DNA from: a virus
Virus record (IMG/VR): IMGVR_UViG_3300037502_001579
Span: 1-26,174 of that record
Length of the DNA stretch: 26,174 nt
Direction: 5' to 3' (one strand)
The notes beneath the pieces were generated by a model, which had not been told where the DNA came from, made no database searches, and was given only the letters and a program-made list of their open reading frames with translations. The position numbers were made by a program, and so were the translations under genes. Shown here in pieces: positions 438 through 10,626 of the stretch (the stretch's first letter is position 1; each line of letters opens with the position of its first letter).

Positions 438-701
438 TCACGTCGACAATCCACGATCACAATAGCCCGACCTTGTCATCTTCTCGAATAGCTCGACGGC
501 TGCACTTTCGATATCCATACCGATCACGGCGATGACTTTCAGATCATTCGTCATGTCTCGGACATGCAGGACCACGCGACCATGATCGCCGATTTGTAGG
601 CCGACTCGGAAGCCATTGGCATACGCGGCGCGGTAGACGCGATCGAGGTCGCGCATCCTCGGCGATGCCGAGCCGGATGGAAGATCATCGTCGAGGATCA
701 T
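438..701 (-). CDS. Hypothetical protein, 87 aa
   Basis: No family recognised. The ATG at 701 overlaps the TGA of the upstream zinc-ribbon gene (ATGA), which favours this start over an upstream in-frame extension with poor phage-like composition. The first twelve residues are acidic and flexible (three consecutive Asp). The rest alternates hydrophobic and charged residues, for example VGLQIGDHGRVVLHVRDM, which suggests a small beta sheet followed by a C-terminal helix with ESAAVELFEKM. No membrane segment, cysteine cluster or nucleotide-binding motif is visible. It is one of three coupled small genes between the iteron-like cluster and the HNH gene, so a replication or regulatory accessory role is possible but unproven. 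Confidence 0.7.
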   Translation of the reverse strand: MILDDDLPSGSASPRMRDLDRVYRAAYANGFRVGLQIGDHGRVVLHVRDMTNDLKVIAVIGMDIESAAVELFEKMTRSGYCDRGLST

Positions 702-982
702 GGGAGCGTCATATCGTTTCGTCGCGCATAGTCTCGAGCAGCTGCACTCGCAGCTTGTGGGCTCGGATACTTCAGCATCGTAGAGATAGTGTCCCACTCG
801 TAGCCACGCCATCGCAGGACGAATGATTCTCCGCTGCGAGGAATGTGGCGCTGCGGCGTGTTCGCGTGAGTGACGGACGTTTCGATTCGGCGTTTGTCGC
901 ATGGCGCGCAGATTGTTTCTCTGCGTTTTCGGTATTGGCTGAGTCGTGCGCCGCAGTCGTCGCATGTTGTGGGGCTAGTCAT
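698..982 (-). CDS. Small zinc-ribbon protein with HTH-like segment, probable DNA-binding
   Basis: The 94-residue product begins with a compact four-cysteine ribbon (C7, C10, C25, C28) containing many Arg and Lys. Its C-terminal half (GYEWDTISTMLKYPSPQAASAAARDYARR) reads like a helix-turn-helix: a short helix, a turn at YPSP, and a positively charged recognition helix. The pattern is typical of small phage transcription regulators; the specific family is not identified. ATG 982 overlaps the last codons of the 88-aa gene by 8 bases, and the stop overlaps the next ATG, so the three genes are translationally coupled. It is close enough to the palindrome cluster at 1264-1427 to be a candidate ligand for it, which is inference. 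Confidence 0.72.
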   Translation of the reverse strand: MTSPTTCDDCGARLSQYRKRRETICAPCDKRRIETSVTHANTPQRHIPRSGESFVLRWRGYEWDTISTMLKYPSPQAASAAARDYARRNDMTLP

Positions 983-1241
983 TCAGCCATGCTCGAGCGT
1001 TGTCGAGGAGGGTTGGGCCCATTTCCTCGAGGAGGTGGGGTGGGAGGGTTAGGACTGTTTCGGGTTGGCGTTTGATCATCTCGAGGATTTGTGTGGCGTA
1101 TTCGACGGTGTCCGAATTGTGTGTGTCGTCGTCGTTGGATCGGATGGTCAGTAGTCCGGCCAGGGCGAGGTATGCGGTCGAGTAGGTGATCGCGTAGAGC
1201 TCGCCCTGGTTGCCCTCGGGTGGGTGTTCGGGTGGGCTCAT
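975..1241 (-). CDS. Hypothetical protein, 88 aa
   Basis: No family recognised. The ATG at 1241 is the first convincing start after the palindrome-rich gap. An ORF read further upstream would translate the repeat region and is unlikely to be real. The ribosome binding site is weak (GAAAG about 11 bases upstream). The N-terminus is Pro/Glu-rich, a central hydrophobic helix (AYLALAGLLTI) follows, then an acidic loop (SNDDDTHNSD) and two helical segments ending in LLDNARAWLND. One hydrophobic stretch of about 11 residues is too short for a membrane span. Its position directly downstream of the GGGGA cluster means its expression may be controlled there. Confidence 0.68.
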   Translation of the reverse strand: MSPPEHPPEGNQGELYAITYSTAYLALAGLLTIRSNDDDTHNSDTVEYATQILEMIKRQPETVLTLPPHLLEEMGPTLLDNARAWLND

Positions 1242-1263: not shown

Positions 1264-1427
1264 GGGGATGTCGCGGCTGCGGATCGGGGAATCGGGGAAT
1301 ACCTATAGGTATTCCCCGATGTCCCCGATAGCCTTCGCATGGGCCGTTTTCCGCTCTGTTGAGCCATTGGGGAGATCGGGGAATAGGGGAATTCCCCTAT
1401 CGTTTTCGTCGTGCCTAATTCCCCTAT
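1264..1427. repeat. Iteron-like cluster of GGGGA/TCCCC palindromes (origin or operator candidate)
   Basis: The 214-bp gap between the primase-helicase stop (1456) and the next start (1241) carries ten GGGGA cores, counting both strands: plus strand at 1264, 1286, 1294, 1369, 1378 and 1386; complement (TCCCC) at 1313, 1322, 1393 and 1420. Most sit in the larger words ATCGGGGAAT or ATAGGGGAATT. They form a perfect 30-bp palindrome at 1291-1320, flanked by one more copy on each side (1283-1290 and 1322-1329), a perfect 18-bp palindrome at 1383-1400, and a half-site at 1417-1427. Next to a primase-helicase this arrangement resembles an iteron origin; an operator array for the 88-aa gene is the main alternative. 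Confidence 0.7.
1291..1320. promoter_or_regulatory. Perfect 30-bp palindrome within the iteron-like cluster
   Basis: The half-site ATCGGGGAATACCTA is followed at once by its exact reverse complement with no spacer. Tandem ATCGGGGA words lie directly outside on both sides, making a nested 47-bp structure (1283-1329) with one unpaired base. The centre CCTATAGG is AT-richer than its surroundings, which would suit either strand opening or cruciform extrusion. No run of T follows on either strand, so a terminator is unlikely. Confidence 0.75.
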
Positions 1428-1455: not shown

Positions 1456-3309
1456 TTATGCGTCGTATTCGATATTGCTTATGAGGTTTGCGTCTTCGAT
1501 GATGAATTCGCGGCGCCCATGATCCGACTTGCGGAGACGCAATCCGCGCTGCTCGAGGTCACTTCGCTGTTTCGCCTTTTTCAGGACGTATTTCGACTTC
1601 TCGGTATCGAAGCCGGCGATGCTGGCGACGTCACGCCAGGGAGCGGTGGCTTCGTCGAGTGCTCTGAAAGCCGAGACGATCAATTCCAGATCAGAGTCGA
1701 TCGGTATAGGTGTCGAGTCGGGCGAGAGGATGCCACTACCCGTCGATCCGATCTTGAGGAAGCTGCATCGCCATTCGGCGGGCGGCTCGTCGTCTTTGAC
1801 CTTCTCGGTCTTGCACGAGACGATGCCGGTCTCCTCGTCTTTCTGAAGTTTCATGATCCAATCCGCGGCATCGCCGATGACGGTCGAGCCGCGCTCGTGC
1901 GACTGATTCCAGCCGGCGTGATGCGTGAACACGATCGCGGCCGACGGGTACCTGTGTCGTAGCTCGTCGATGATGCCGACGAGTTGCGTCATGTCTTGAC
2001 TCTTATTCTCATCGAGGCCGCTGATCGAGCGGGCGAGCGTGTCGAACACGATCAGGCTCGGCGGTTCGGGGAGGTTGTCCAGGGCGAGTGCGAGCTCTGC
2101 TCGAGCCTTCGGATCCGGCAATGGGACGCTCGTGGTGAGCGCATAAAAGCCTGGCACCTCGTCGACGTCTCGCGACTCTTTCCACGCGTTGACGCGCTTT
2201 GCGAGGCCGGCTGATCCCTCTGACATGACGTATGCCACGATCGAGCCTTCGCCGTGCGTTGCGAGATCGTGATACGGCTTTCCTGTGGTGATGCTCAGGG
2301 CGAGATCGAGCGCGTCGAATGTCTTATACGAGCCGCGCCGCCCATACATCAGGCCATACCCGTTTTTCGGAAGGATCTTGTCCACGAGATAGTCGATCGG
2401 TGGCAGGGCGGCGATTTCGGATTCCGAGAGGAATCGATACCTCGGCGCGGTATCGTCTTCGGCGCGTTCCGCGACGAGCTCGTCGAGCGTGATCGTCGGC
2501 ATATACAACGGCACGTCAGACGGCGAATACGATGCGAGACTCTTTGCGATGTTCTCAACTTCGCGCGTCGCAAGCGGCGGCTTACAGATCCGCTGATTCT
2601 CCGCGAGTAGCGCCGCCTCGATCGCGGCCTGCGAGAAGCCGCGGCGTCGCATGGCGCCACCGAGCTCTGTGAGCATCATGTTTCGCGAGCCCTGCGTTAT
2701 CTGCGTCGACTCGTCAACGACGAGCTTCTCTTTTTGCTCTTTGCGGTTGCGGAGGTACTCGTCGAGCCATTGTGTGACGATTGGCGCTGTGGCGGGTGGC
2801 GGATTCTGAATCCACTTGTATTCGATGCCGCTCTTGTGGATGCTCGGCGGCGCGACGATGTACGACACGCCGGCGCGAATGTCGATGCCGGCGTCTTCGT
2901 CGCGGCCTACGCTCGGCGAGTAGTCGCCGCTCGGATCCTCGTAGACTATGTGCCAGCCTTTGCCCGTCTTCGATATGGGCGCGTCTTGCATAGCCTGGAA
3001 CGTGTCGAGGTCGCAGATATCCTCGAATCGTTCGCGCGCTGCGACGCTGTCAATGTCGACGATGAGTTTCCTCGAGGCGCCGGCGACGAGGCCGATGTTC
3101 GCTTGCGGTGTTTCGTCCCATTGGCGCGCGACGAGTTCGGGATCGAGCATGGGCTCGGCGGCGCCATGCTCGCCGAGCGGATGCTTACCTTCGGATTCGC
3201 AATCGACGCGGCCACACGAGCACGAGCCATCTTCGCGAATCCAATGGAGCGGGATGACGCCCCATCCGAGGCTCGCATACTTCGCTGCGGCCGTCTGTAG
3301 GCTCGTCAT
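1456..3309 (-). CDS. Primase-polymerase/helicase fusion (AEP prim-pol plus RecA-fold helicase)
   Basis: The 617-residue protein combines two replication activities. Residues 1-185 are an AEP bifunctional primase/polymerase domain: an N-terminal C30-x-C32-x4-C37 cluster with H43, motif I D85-x-D87 (IVDID), motif II H120 (GKGWHIVY) and motif III D143 (GIDIRAG) followed by the family's APPS signature. A helical linker (about 205-262) resembles a primase C-terminal module. Residues 310-490 are a RepA/RecA-like ATPase: Walker A GRRGSYKT (323-330), Walker B LIVFD (D423), an FTHHAG sensor segment (461-466) and R473. It should prime and unwind phage DNA in the cytoplasm. ATG 3309 overlaps the upstream TGA. 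The iteron-like cluster lies directly after its stop. Confidence 0.95.
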   Translation of the reverse strand: MTSLQTAAAKYASLGWGVIPLHWIREDGSCSCGRVDCESEGKHPLGEHGAAEPMLDPELVARQWDETPQANIGLVAGASRKLIVDIDSVAARERFEDICDLDTFQAMQDAPISKTGKGWHIVYEDPSGDYSPSVGRDEDAGIDIRAGVSYIVAPPSIHKSGIEYKWIQNPPPATAPIVTQWLDEYLRNRKEQKEKLVVDESTQITQGSRNMMLTELGGAMRRRGFSQAAIEAALLAENQRICKPPLATREVENIAKSLASYSPSDVPLYMPTITLDELVAERAEDDTAPRYRFLSESEIAALPPIDYLVDKILPKNGYGLMYGRRGSYKTFDALDLALSITTGKPYHDLATHGEGSIVAYVMSEGSAGLAKRVNAWKESRDVDEVPGFYALTTSVPLPDPKARAELALALDNLPEPPSLIVFDTLARSISGLDENKSQDMTQLVGIIDELRHRYPSAAIVFTHHAGWNQSHERGSTVIGDAADWIMKLQKDEETGIVSCKTEKVKDDEPPAEWRCSFLKIGSTGSGILSPDSTPIPIDSDLELIVSAFRALDEATAPWRDVASIAGFDTEKSKYVLKKAKQRSDLEQRGLRLRKSDHGRREFIIEDANLISNIEYDA

Positions 3310-9122: not shown

Positions 9123-9162
9123 AGGCTGCTCGCGTGTCGTATTGGCAGGAGAGTGCCTCCTA

Positions 9163-9648
9163 ATGGCCATCCTCGGAGAGTTCGCGAATCCTGCGCGGAT
9201 GGTGATGCAAGAGCATGGGATCACGGTCGAGGATCTCGCGAGCCTTGCGGGCGCGTCCGAGCGTGCCGCGTACTCGTGGGTCCGAGGCGAGCGCGAGCCG
9301 GCCGAGAAGGTCCATTACGCGATGATTCGCGAATGGGGTTATGCGGGCCGGCAGGTCTCGGGCGCGCTCGCAGCTGCTCGAGAGGCATGGCTCGAGAAGC
9401 ATCCGATCACGCCTGGCAAGGGACGCAAGATCGGCCGCAAGGCTACGCCGGGAAAGGTCGTCAAGCGTGTGTACGCGCCCGAGAAGACGCCGCCGCCGTA
9501 TGCGTACGCTCGAGACGAGCACGATGGTAAGACGTACTCGATCGAGGAATGGAAACGGCTTTTCGGCGAGCCTGGCGGCGGCGGTCCGGATATCAATGGC
9601 CGGTATTCGGGATGTTTCGATACTGAGCCGTGTTGGCTCGGCGAGTAG
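9163..9648 (+). CDS. Cro/CI-type (XRE-like) HTH regulator, 161 aa
   Basis: Residues about 12-55 match the Cro/CI helix-turn-helix layout: VMQEHGITVEDLASLAGASERAAYSWVRGEREPAEKVHYAMI, with helix 2 VEDLASLAG and recognition helix ERAAYSWVRGER. A Lys/Arg-rich segment (about 80-108) and a Gly-rich tail follow, unlike the peptidase-like domain of CI repressors. ATG 9163 is preferred, with GGAGA about ten bases upstream; TTG 9142 would start inside that element. It is the best candidate for a repressor acting on the palindromic control region at 7640-7715 or on the promoter just downstream of it. Class is reasonably sure, target is inferred. Confidence 0.75.
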   Translation: MAILGEFANPARMVMQEHGITVEDLASLAGASERAAYSWVRGEREPAEKVHYAMIREWGYAGRQVSGALAAAREAWLEKHPITPGKGRKIGRKATPGKVVKRVYAPEKTPPPYAYARDEHDGKTYSIEEWKRLFGEPGGGGPDINGRYSGCFDTEPCWLGE

Positions 9649-10092: not shown

Positions 10093-10626
10093 ATGAGCAC
10101 CATGAAGCATCTCGCAAGCGTCCTCGACGACCTCGAGCACGGCCACGACGTCGACCTCGTCGACGCCGCCCACGCGTACATCATGAACGGCTGGACGATC
10201 ACCCTCGTCGGCGACGACAAGCGGCCGATCGGCAAATGGGGCGCCGGCGGCTGGAATCGATTCGACGCGTCGAACATGCACAAGCTCCGCATCGGTCGCG
10301 CGACCGGCCTCGGCGTCATCACGGGCCCGAGCGGCCTCGTCGTCCTCGACTATGACCAGGCGGACGTGTTCGACCTCGTCGCGTTGACGTACGGCGAGCA
10401 TGATACGCGGATCGCGCGCACGCCGCGCGGCTATCACGCGTACTTCTCCGCCCCCGACGGTGTCACGCTGAAGCCGCGCCAGAACATCATCCCCGGCCTC
10501 GACGTCCGCGCCGCAGAGTCGTACATCATCTTGCCGCCGAGCATCATGAGTCACGGCTCTTACGCGTGGCACAACGCGAAGCCGATCAGCGAACTCCCCG
10601 CGAACATCATCCCGCTCATCTCGTAA
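10093..10626 (+). CDS. Stand-alone AEP primase/polymerase domain protein
   Basis: The 177-residue protein is a single AEP prim-pol domain: GW at the N-terminal strand (about 33), K43-x-P and W49 of the K-P-x-x-x-W element, GLGVITG before motif I D86-x-D88 (VVLDYD), motif II H115 (PRGYHAYF), motif III D137 (GLDVRA) and the following ILPPS signature. All catalytic positions are present. No helicase or primase C-terminal module is attached, unlike the 617-aa protein at 1456-3309, which carries its own prim-pol domain. The start has AGGAGA at good distance; a second ATG lies three codons on. It may prime replication, act in repair, or regulate the other primase. Domain identity is firm, role is open. 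Confidence 0.9.
   Translation: MSTMKHLASVLDDLEHGHDVDLVDAAHAYIMNGWTITLVGDDKRPIGKWGAGGWNRFDASNMHKLRIGRATGLGVITGPSGLVVLDYDQADVFDLVALTYGEHDTRIARTPRGYHAYFSAPDGVTLKPRQNIIPGLDVRAAESYIILPPSIMSHGSYAWHNAKPISELPANIIPLIS

Follow-up and report, generated by a model that had tools for sequence, protein, structure and literature searches.

A palindrome-cored iteron array next to a PrimPol/RepA-type primase-helicase gene is a probable phage replication origin

The DNA analyzed here, referred to as the window, is virus DNA of 26,174 bases comprising positions 1-26,174 of IMG/VR record IMGVR_UViG_3300037502_001579. Its late genes are located on the minus strand and run leftward. A dense cluster of short repeats lies directly 3' of the primase-helicase gene, and an element is found in this place in most relatives as well. 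The following features were assigned to the locus.

698-982, minus strand: gene for a Zn-ribbon protein whose C-terminal part includes a conserved HTH-like stretch (GYEWDTI...); relatives also have it downstream of the element
975-1241, minus strand: conserved small gene without a Pfam match, located downstream of the element; relatives whose iterons differ retain a homologue
1242-1262, no strand: AT-rich flank (76% AT over 21 bp) that separates Array A from the next gene
1283-1329, no strand: Array A, a 47-bp near-palindrome with a one-base bulge and two tandem ATCGGGGA units per arm, containing the 30-bp palindrome 1291-1320
1302-1309, no strand: central core CCTATAGG, the centre of the large palindrome
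1330-1365, no strand: spacer between Arrays A and B, nearly identical in the close relative
1366-1400, no strand: Array B, with ATNGGGGA three times in tandem (1366, 1375, 1383) and once inverted (1393), containing the 18-bp palindrome, kept in the close relative
1417-1427, minus strand: half-site AATTCCCCTAT adjoining the primase stop (unit at 1420-1427), with counterparts in relatives
1430-1447, no strand: TGTAACA-N4-TGTGACA pair before the primase stop
1456-3309, minus strand: primase-helicase gene (Pfam, PHROGs, AlphaFold2)
1492-1695, minus strand: C-terminal winged-helix DNA-binding domain of the primase-helicase, residues 539-606, predicted with AlphaFold2

The primase-helicase harbors the Pfam domains Prim-Pol (PF09250, residues 8-176) and PriCT_1 (PF08708, residues 204-263), followed by a RepA-type AAA_25 helicase domain (PF13481, residues 296-469). 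The AlphaFold2 model of the full-length protein is poor (mean pLDDT 48); residues 539-606 were modeled with pLDDT values of about 75-92 and show the order H-E-H-H-E-E. In a fold search the isolated C-terminal domain matched winged helices of the MarR/SelB type (Z 6-7, weak E-values), which suggests a winged helix at the level of the fold class; the P4 origin-binding domain is absent among the fold-comparison matches listed. A second, solitary Prim-Pol gene without helicase (177 aa) is located on the opposite strand at 10093-10626 (plus). In the relative, the corresponding region shows in addition a short stretch of DNA that matches the main primase.

A first-pass annotation of the window had described ten GGGGA cores in 1264-1427, perfect palindromes of 30 bp (1291-1320) and 18 bp (1383-1400) and a half-site at 1417-1427. 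All ten GGGGA/TCCCC cores were recovered (starts at 1264, 1286, 1294, 1313, 1322, 1369, 1378, 1386, 1393 and 1420), and both palindromes and the half-site are exact. The repeated unit is the 8-mer ATNGGGGA, of which about nine copies occur in 1261-1427, in tandem with a spacing of 8-9 bp as well as inverted. Plus-strand units are positioned at 1283, 1291, 1366, 1375 and 1383 and minus-strand units at 1313, 1322, 1393 and 1420, with a poorer copy at 1261. The flank at 1242-1262 could be a melting region, while the region between the two arrays is not AT-rich (39% AT in the spacer 1330-1365).

The clustering far exceeds expectation. The ten cores in 164 nt compare with 0.23 per 164 nt expected from the density in the window, and the maximum elsewhere is two. 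The heptamer GGGGAAT has nine matches in the window against 2.15 expected, and seven of the nine are inside the element. A perfect palindrome of 30 bp occurred in none of 200 first-order Markov sequences of 26 kb, in which the longest had 22 bp. Palindromes of at least 18 bp were present in 76 of these 200 sequences, and the 18-mer alone is not exceptional; it was also found in two other contigs, and tandem GGGGAAT in six others, all of which look like chance or unrelated occurrences.

An exact search with the 30-bp palindrome identified a close relative, contig G001 (29,926 bp; locus L005), whose DNA is about 84% identical to the window. This contig starts at the base homologous to the window start and ends just beyond the small terminase gene; it is thus a nearly complete phage genome and served as reference for the part missing from the window. 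Positions 1-60 of both sequences share the same homologous first base and a conserved inverted-repeat block, TTTACCCCACCCCCGGAGATCCGTACGGGGGGGTA, which also occurs at the ends of relatives L028 and L029 and likely marks the genome's cos or packaging end. Outside the element, exact ATNGGGGA is present as two isolated copies in the window and is absent from the near-complete relative. The motif is therefore not scattered at promoters across the genome, a distribution that the first-pass annotation had named as evidence against its proposal. Instead, the repeat units are clustered and nearly confined to one locus, as in iteron origins. Cumulative GC skew is uninformative, with neither a maximum nor a minimum at the element.

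The block at about 1270-1407 (about 138 nt, spacer included) differs from the close relative at three positions, compared to about 84% identity in the surrounding coding DNA. The core at 1264 is not conserved there, and the 18-bp palindrome is imperfect through one change of ATA to ATC, which makes the two variants of the unit look interchangeable. TGTRACA is conserved between the two phages at 1430-1447 with two middle bases exchanged (TGTGACA-N4-TGTAACA in the relative), and this pair is a possible accessory factor site.

More distant relatives were collected in several ways. A nucleotide search of the phage collection with the element region gave no matches and a scan of viral contigs with a single window protein gave no relatives. 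A profile search found phages whose primase-helicases are 59-61% identical to that of the window, and a second search, with the helicase domain, yielded 80 loci; counts in post-primase gaps refer to 78 relatives. One further relative, in a Hyphomicrobiales MAG, came from a scan of genome contigs and harbors a GCGAACAT array and a CCCTAAAGGG core. Lack of conservation in relatives with a syntenic primase-helicase had been put forward as a second argument against the proposal. As described above, the close relative keeps the sequence itself, and the syntenic relatives with 59-61% identity keep its position and layout, consisting of a half-site near the stop, a small palindrome with tandem units, a spacer and a large palindrome centred on CCTATAGG, but in these the repeat word is replaced at every site. 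The word is ATNGGGGA in the window and its close relative, CTCACCGG in L028 and ACCCCCTGCA in L029, L030 and L040.

The boundaries of this replacement are evident from L028 and L029. Their primase-helicases are 97% identical over the first 535 residues and 52% identical in the C-terminal domain, and the next two genes are 94% and 93% identical. At the DNA level, identity is about 78-100% before -250, 35-62% from -200 to +190 of the primase stop and 78-90% thereafter. The drop, from about 88%, covers the C-terminal domain together with the gap, and identity recovers in the next gene. No such dip was observed between L029 and L040, which share the same C-terminal type. In other pairs the exchange boundaries were again located at about -230 to -350 and at +180 to +560 or beyond.

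Family-specific repeated words follow the primase gene in most of the 80 loci, usually around a palindrome centre resembling CC(C)TWWAGG(G), and a large inverted repeat 3' of the gene recurs in relatives. CYTWWARG was present in 33 of 78 post-primase gaps versus 58 of 2273 control windows. Among cultured phages, the layout was found in the Roseobacter phages CRP-823 (CTACAAA) and CRP-831 (GTATAAA), which have the core CCCTTTAGGG in common, and also in Alteromonas phages XX1924 and PB15, Idiomarinaceae phage 1N2-2, Salicola phage CGphi29 and Rhizobium phage 16-3; it is also present in the uncultured MW202867. In Wolbachia phage WOVitB and in CRP-406 the arrangement is weaker or different. A 28-bp palindrome, GGACAGGACACTCTCTAGAGTCCTGTCC, is letter-identical in about 20 contigs of the L041-L056 family, in which the surrounding gap differs. 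About ten of the 78 relatives have no clear array in the gap. The loci L109, L114, L080, L085, L100, L102 and L065 show no clear iteron array after the primase stop; the origin of array-less relatives may be located elsewhere. The contigs L027 and L030 end within the palindromic array or shortly before it, and assembly may thus often lose origins of this class at contig ends.

Co-variation of repeats and protein was assessed in 445 phage pairs with a helicase identity of at least 45%, with sharing defined as repeated 6-mers in common. Iterons were shared in all 196 pairs with a C-terminal identity of at least 50% and in 13 of 222 pairs below 35%, at similar mean helicase identity, although the pairs are not independent and the gap adjoins the C-terminal domain, so that some co-inheritance is due to linkage alone. 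Among helicases at least 95% identical, sharing was 49 of 49 for similar C-terminal domains versus 1 of 24 for dissimilar ones. Within clades defined at 85% helicase identity, as many as four C-terminal types occur, along with four words; a count across clades would require at least six exchanges. Linkage alone is a disfavored explanation, because words are retained even where divergence has brought the remainder of the gap to near the random level of about 50%: XX1924 and PB15 each harbor 12 GGTTCA copies at 56% gap identity, and L062 and L073 harbor eight and seven TGGGCA copies at 58%.

We conclude that the element probably (at about 0.82) serves this phage as its origin of replication, to which the adjacent PrimPol/RepA-type helicase would bind through its C-terminal winged helix. 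The first pass had already suggested an origin of the iteron type, or a site of replication control, next to the primase-helicase, and confinement, conserved layout and co-variation lend this proposal comparative support. The primase-helicase, the HNH-like protein and the Zn-ribbon protein had been named as candidate binders. The primase-helicase gains from the comparison, since its C-terminal domain co-varies with the repeats, which supports a role as cognate initiator of the array. The Zn-ribbon protein does not co-vary, being 93% identical in two phages whose repeats differ.

The origin would comprise two clusters of ATNGGGGA iterons directly 3' of the initiator gene, one of which forms a large palindrome with CCTATAGG at its centre. 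The predicted C-terminal winged helix of the PrimPol/RepA-type helicase is the proposed reader of the iterons and would bind the individual units. If the palindrome were occupied symmetrically, two helicase assemblies would face outward, and either the CCTATAGG core or the AT-rich flank at 1242-1262 would melt. The helicase would then load and the PrimPol domain prime, which would initiate replication. Recognition would be modular, in that relatives swap winged helix and array jointly, as a single cassette, and retain the remainder of the enzyme.

Two other functions were considered improbable, to a similar degree. The element could be an operator array at which the primase-helicase or a repressor controls the genes that follow (the small gene, Zn-ribbon and HNH) or limits read-through, without origin function. 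Its palindromic nature and its position before a minus-strand gene would suit an operator, a repressor-like HTH gene is present at 9142-9648, and autoregulation could coexist with origin function. However, a scan of 1000-1700 for sigma-70-like promoters found none, and other families keep the array beside quite different downstream genes. An operator is further disfavored because the word follows the primase C-terminal domain and not the downstream genes, which stay 93-94% identical, and because the units are nearly absent elsewhere. The iterons could alternatively form a control or incompatibility site that titrates the initiator or handcuffs copies while synthesis starts elsewhere, as for P4 crr and plasmid inc. 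The iterons of iteron plasmids often serve such control, and both the presence of two separate clusters and the failure of GC skew to mark the element agree with it. Against this, the near-complete relative contains no second array, and the elaborate palindrome with its recurrent core suggests an assembly site. A structured RNA, a terminator or an extended coding sequence is highly improbable, although both strands can form strong hairpins (z -5.6 and -6.0) and a minus-strand frame is open through the element in window and close relative. The best Rfam match is a chance sub-threshold one (19.3 versus 60 bits), no minus-strand terminator-like site was found, and in relatives the units persist although pairing of the arms is poor or interrupted by indels. 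Coding in the open frame was rejected on its substitution pattern (11 of 14 changed codons non-synonymous, no third-position excess; 179 synonymous versus 82 non-synonymous in the primase).

The reading of the element as an origin was compared with known systems. The alpha protein of phage P4 has a TOPRIM-type primase, in contrast to the Prim-Pol domain (PF09250) of the window protein, and the P4 layout of ori and crr is unlike that of the window. Both proteins nevertheless combine primase, helicase and a C-terminal winged helix, predicted for the window protein, in a similar plan that does not amount to homology, and in alpha this winged helix binds the origin repeats (PMC4234260, review). 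The annotated origin of Streptococcus phage Sfi21 (AF115103), a 302-bp non-coding 'phage inhibitory sequence', harbors 11 GTAAC/GTTAC iterons and directly follows the 3' end of the gene for the replication helicase. PrimPol and PriCT_1 domains are also present, but in the neighboring gene, and the separate D5/SF3-type helicase is unrelated to that of the window. The Sfi21 iterons flank a long AT-rich stretch, whereas the window has a GC-rich palindrome with CCTATAGG. In phage-inducible chromosomal islands (SaPI and relatives) the origin is located immediately 3' of the initiator gene and contains two iteron sets (PMC6092414), as does the window. These islands are satellites and not complete phages, their iterons flank an AT-rich melting region, unlike the window spacer 1330-1365 with only 39% AT, and a CCTWWAGG core is not described for them (PMC6092414).

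Plasmid pRN1 requires for replication a stem-loop 3' of orf904, a gene for a PrimPol-helicase-winged-helix protein, and for the Bordetella phages BIP-1/BPP-1 a similar large inverted repeat 3' of the gene was predicted, in BIP-1 (PMC4234260). The 47-bp near-palindrome of the window resembles these in position. Specific protein binding to the downstream region of pRN1 could not be shown and no iterons were found there (PMC4234260); the sequence of the stem-loop is poorly conserved, and the helicases of pRN1 and BPP-1 belong to SF3 (D5_N in BPP-1), in contrast to the AAA_25/RepA type (PF13481) of the window. In the PLEs of Vibrio cholerae, the origin iterons vary in step with the DNA-binding domain of RepA, the two are swapped as one module, and swaps have been tested experimentally (PMC8263062). 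The PLE initiator is of the RepA_N type and not a PrimPol-helicase, and the PLE origin is attacked by the phage nuclease Odn. The origin type is thus already known from Sfi21, satellite islands and pRN1, and what appears new is a palindrome-cored, cassette-swapped class. A publication describing this class of phage origin was not found in the literature searched, which left out subscription papers.

To our knowledge, phage origins are rarely known beyond a few model phages. A single locus of this kind is unremarkable as an origin; what makes it interesting is the combination of a conserved core and a specificity that can be exchanged, through which the initiator-iteron code becomes testable. 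The relatives form a natural library of about 20 pairs of initiator domain and iteron, several of them in near-identical enzymes, and reading of the origin by the winged helix is therefore directly testable by swaps. More tentatively, and with some doubt on our part, PrimPol/RepA-type phages might have a single origin class in common, characterized by a fixed CCTWWAGG-centred palindrome, freely exchangeable cassettes of winged helix and iterons and a readable code, in which similar domains read GGTACA, GGTTCA, GGTAAC and GGGACA, its diversity being driven by competition among co-infecting phages, satellites or origin-directed defences. If the origin reading is true, the origin of phages with a PrimPol/RepA-type helicase would often be readable from sequence, just after the helicase gene. 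The exchange of a single small cassette would then be the way in which phages change the specificity of their origins, a point relevant to competition with satellites, to origin decoys as annotated for Sfi21 and to origin-directed nucleases as in ICP1.
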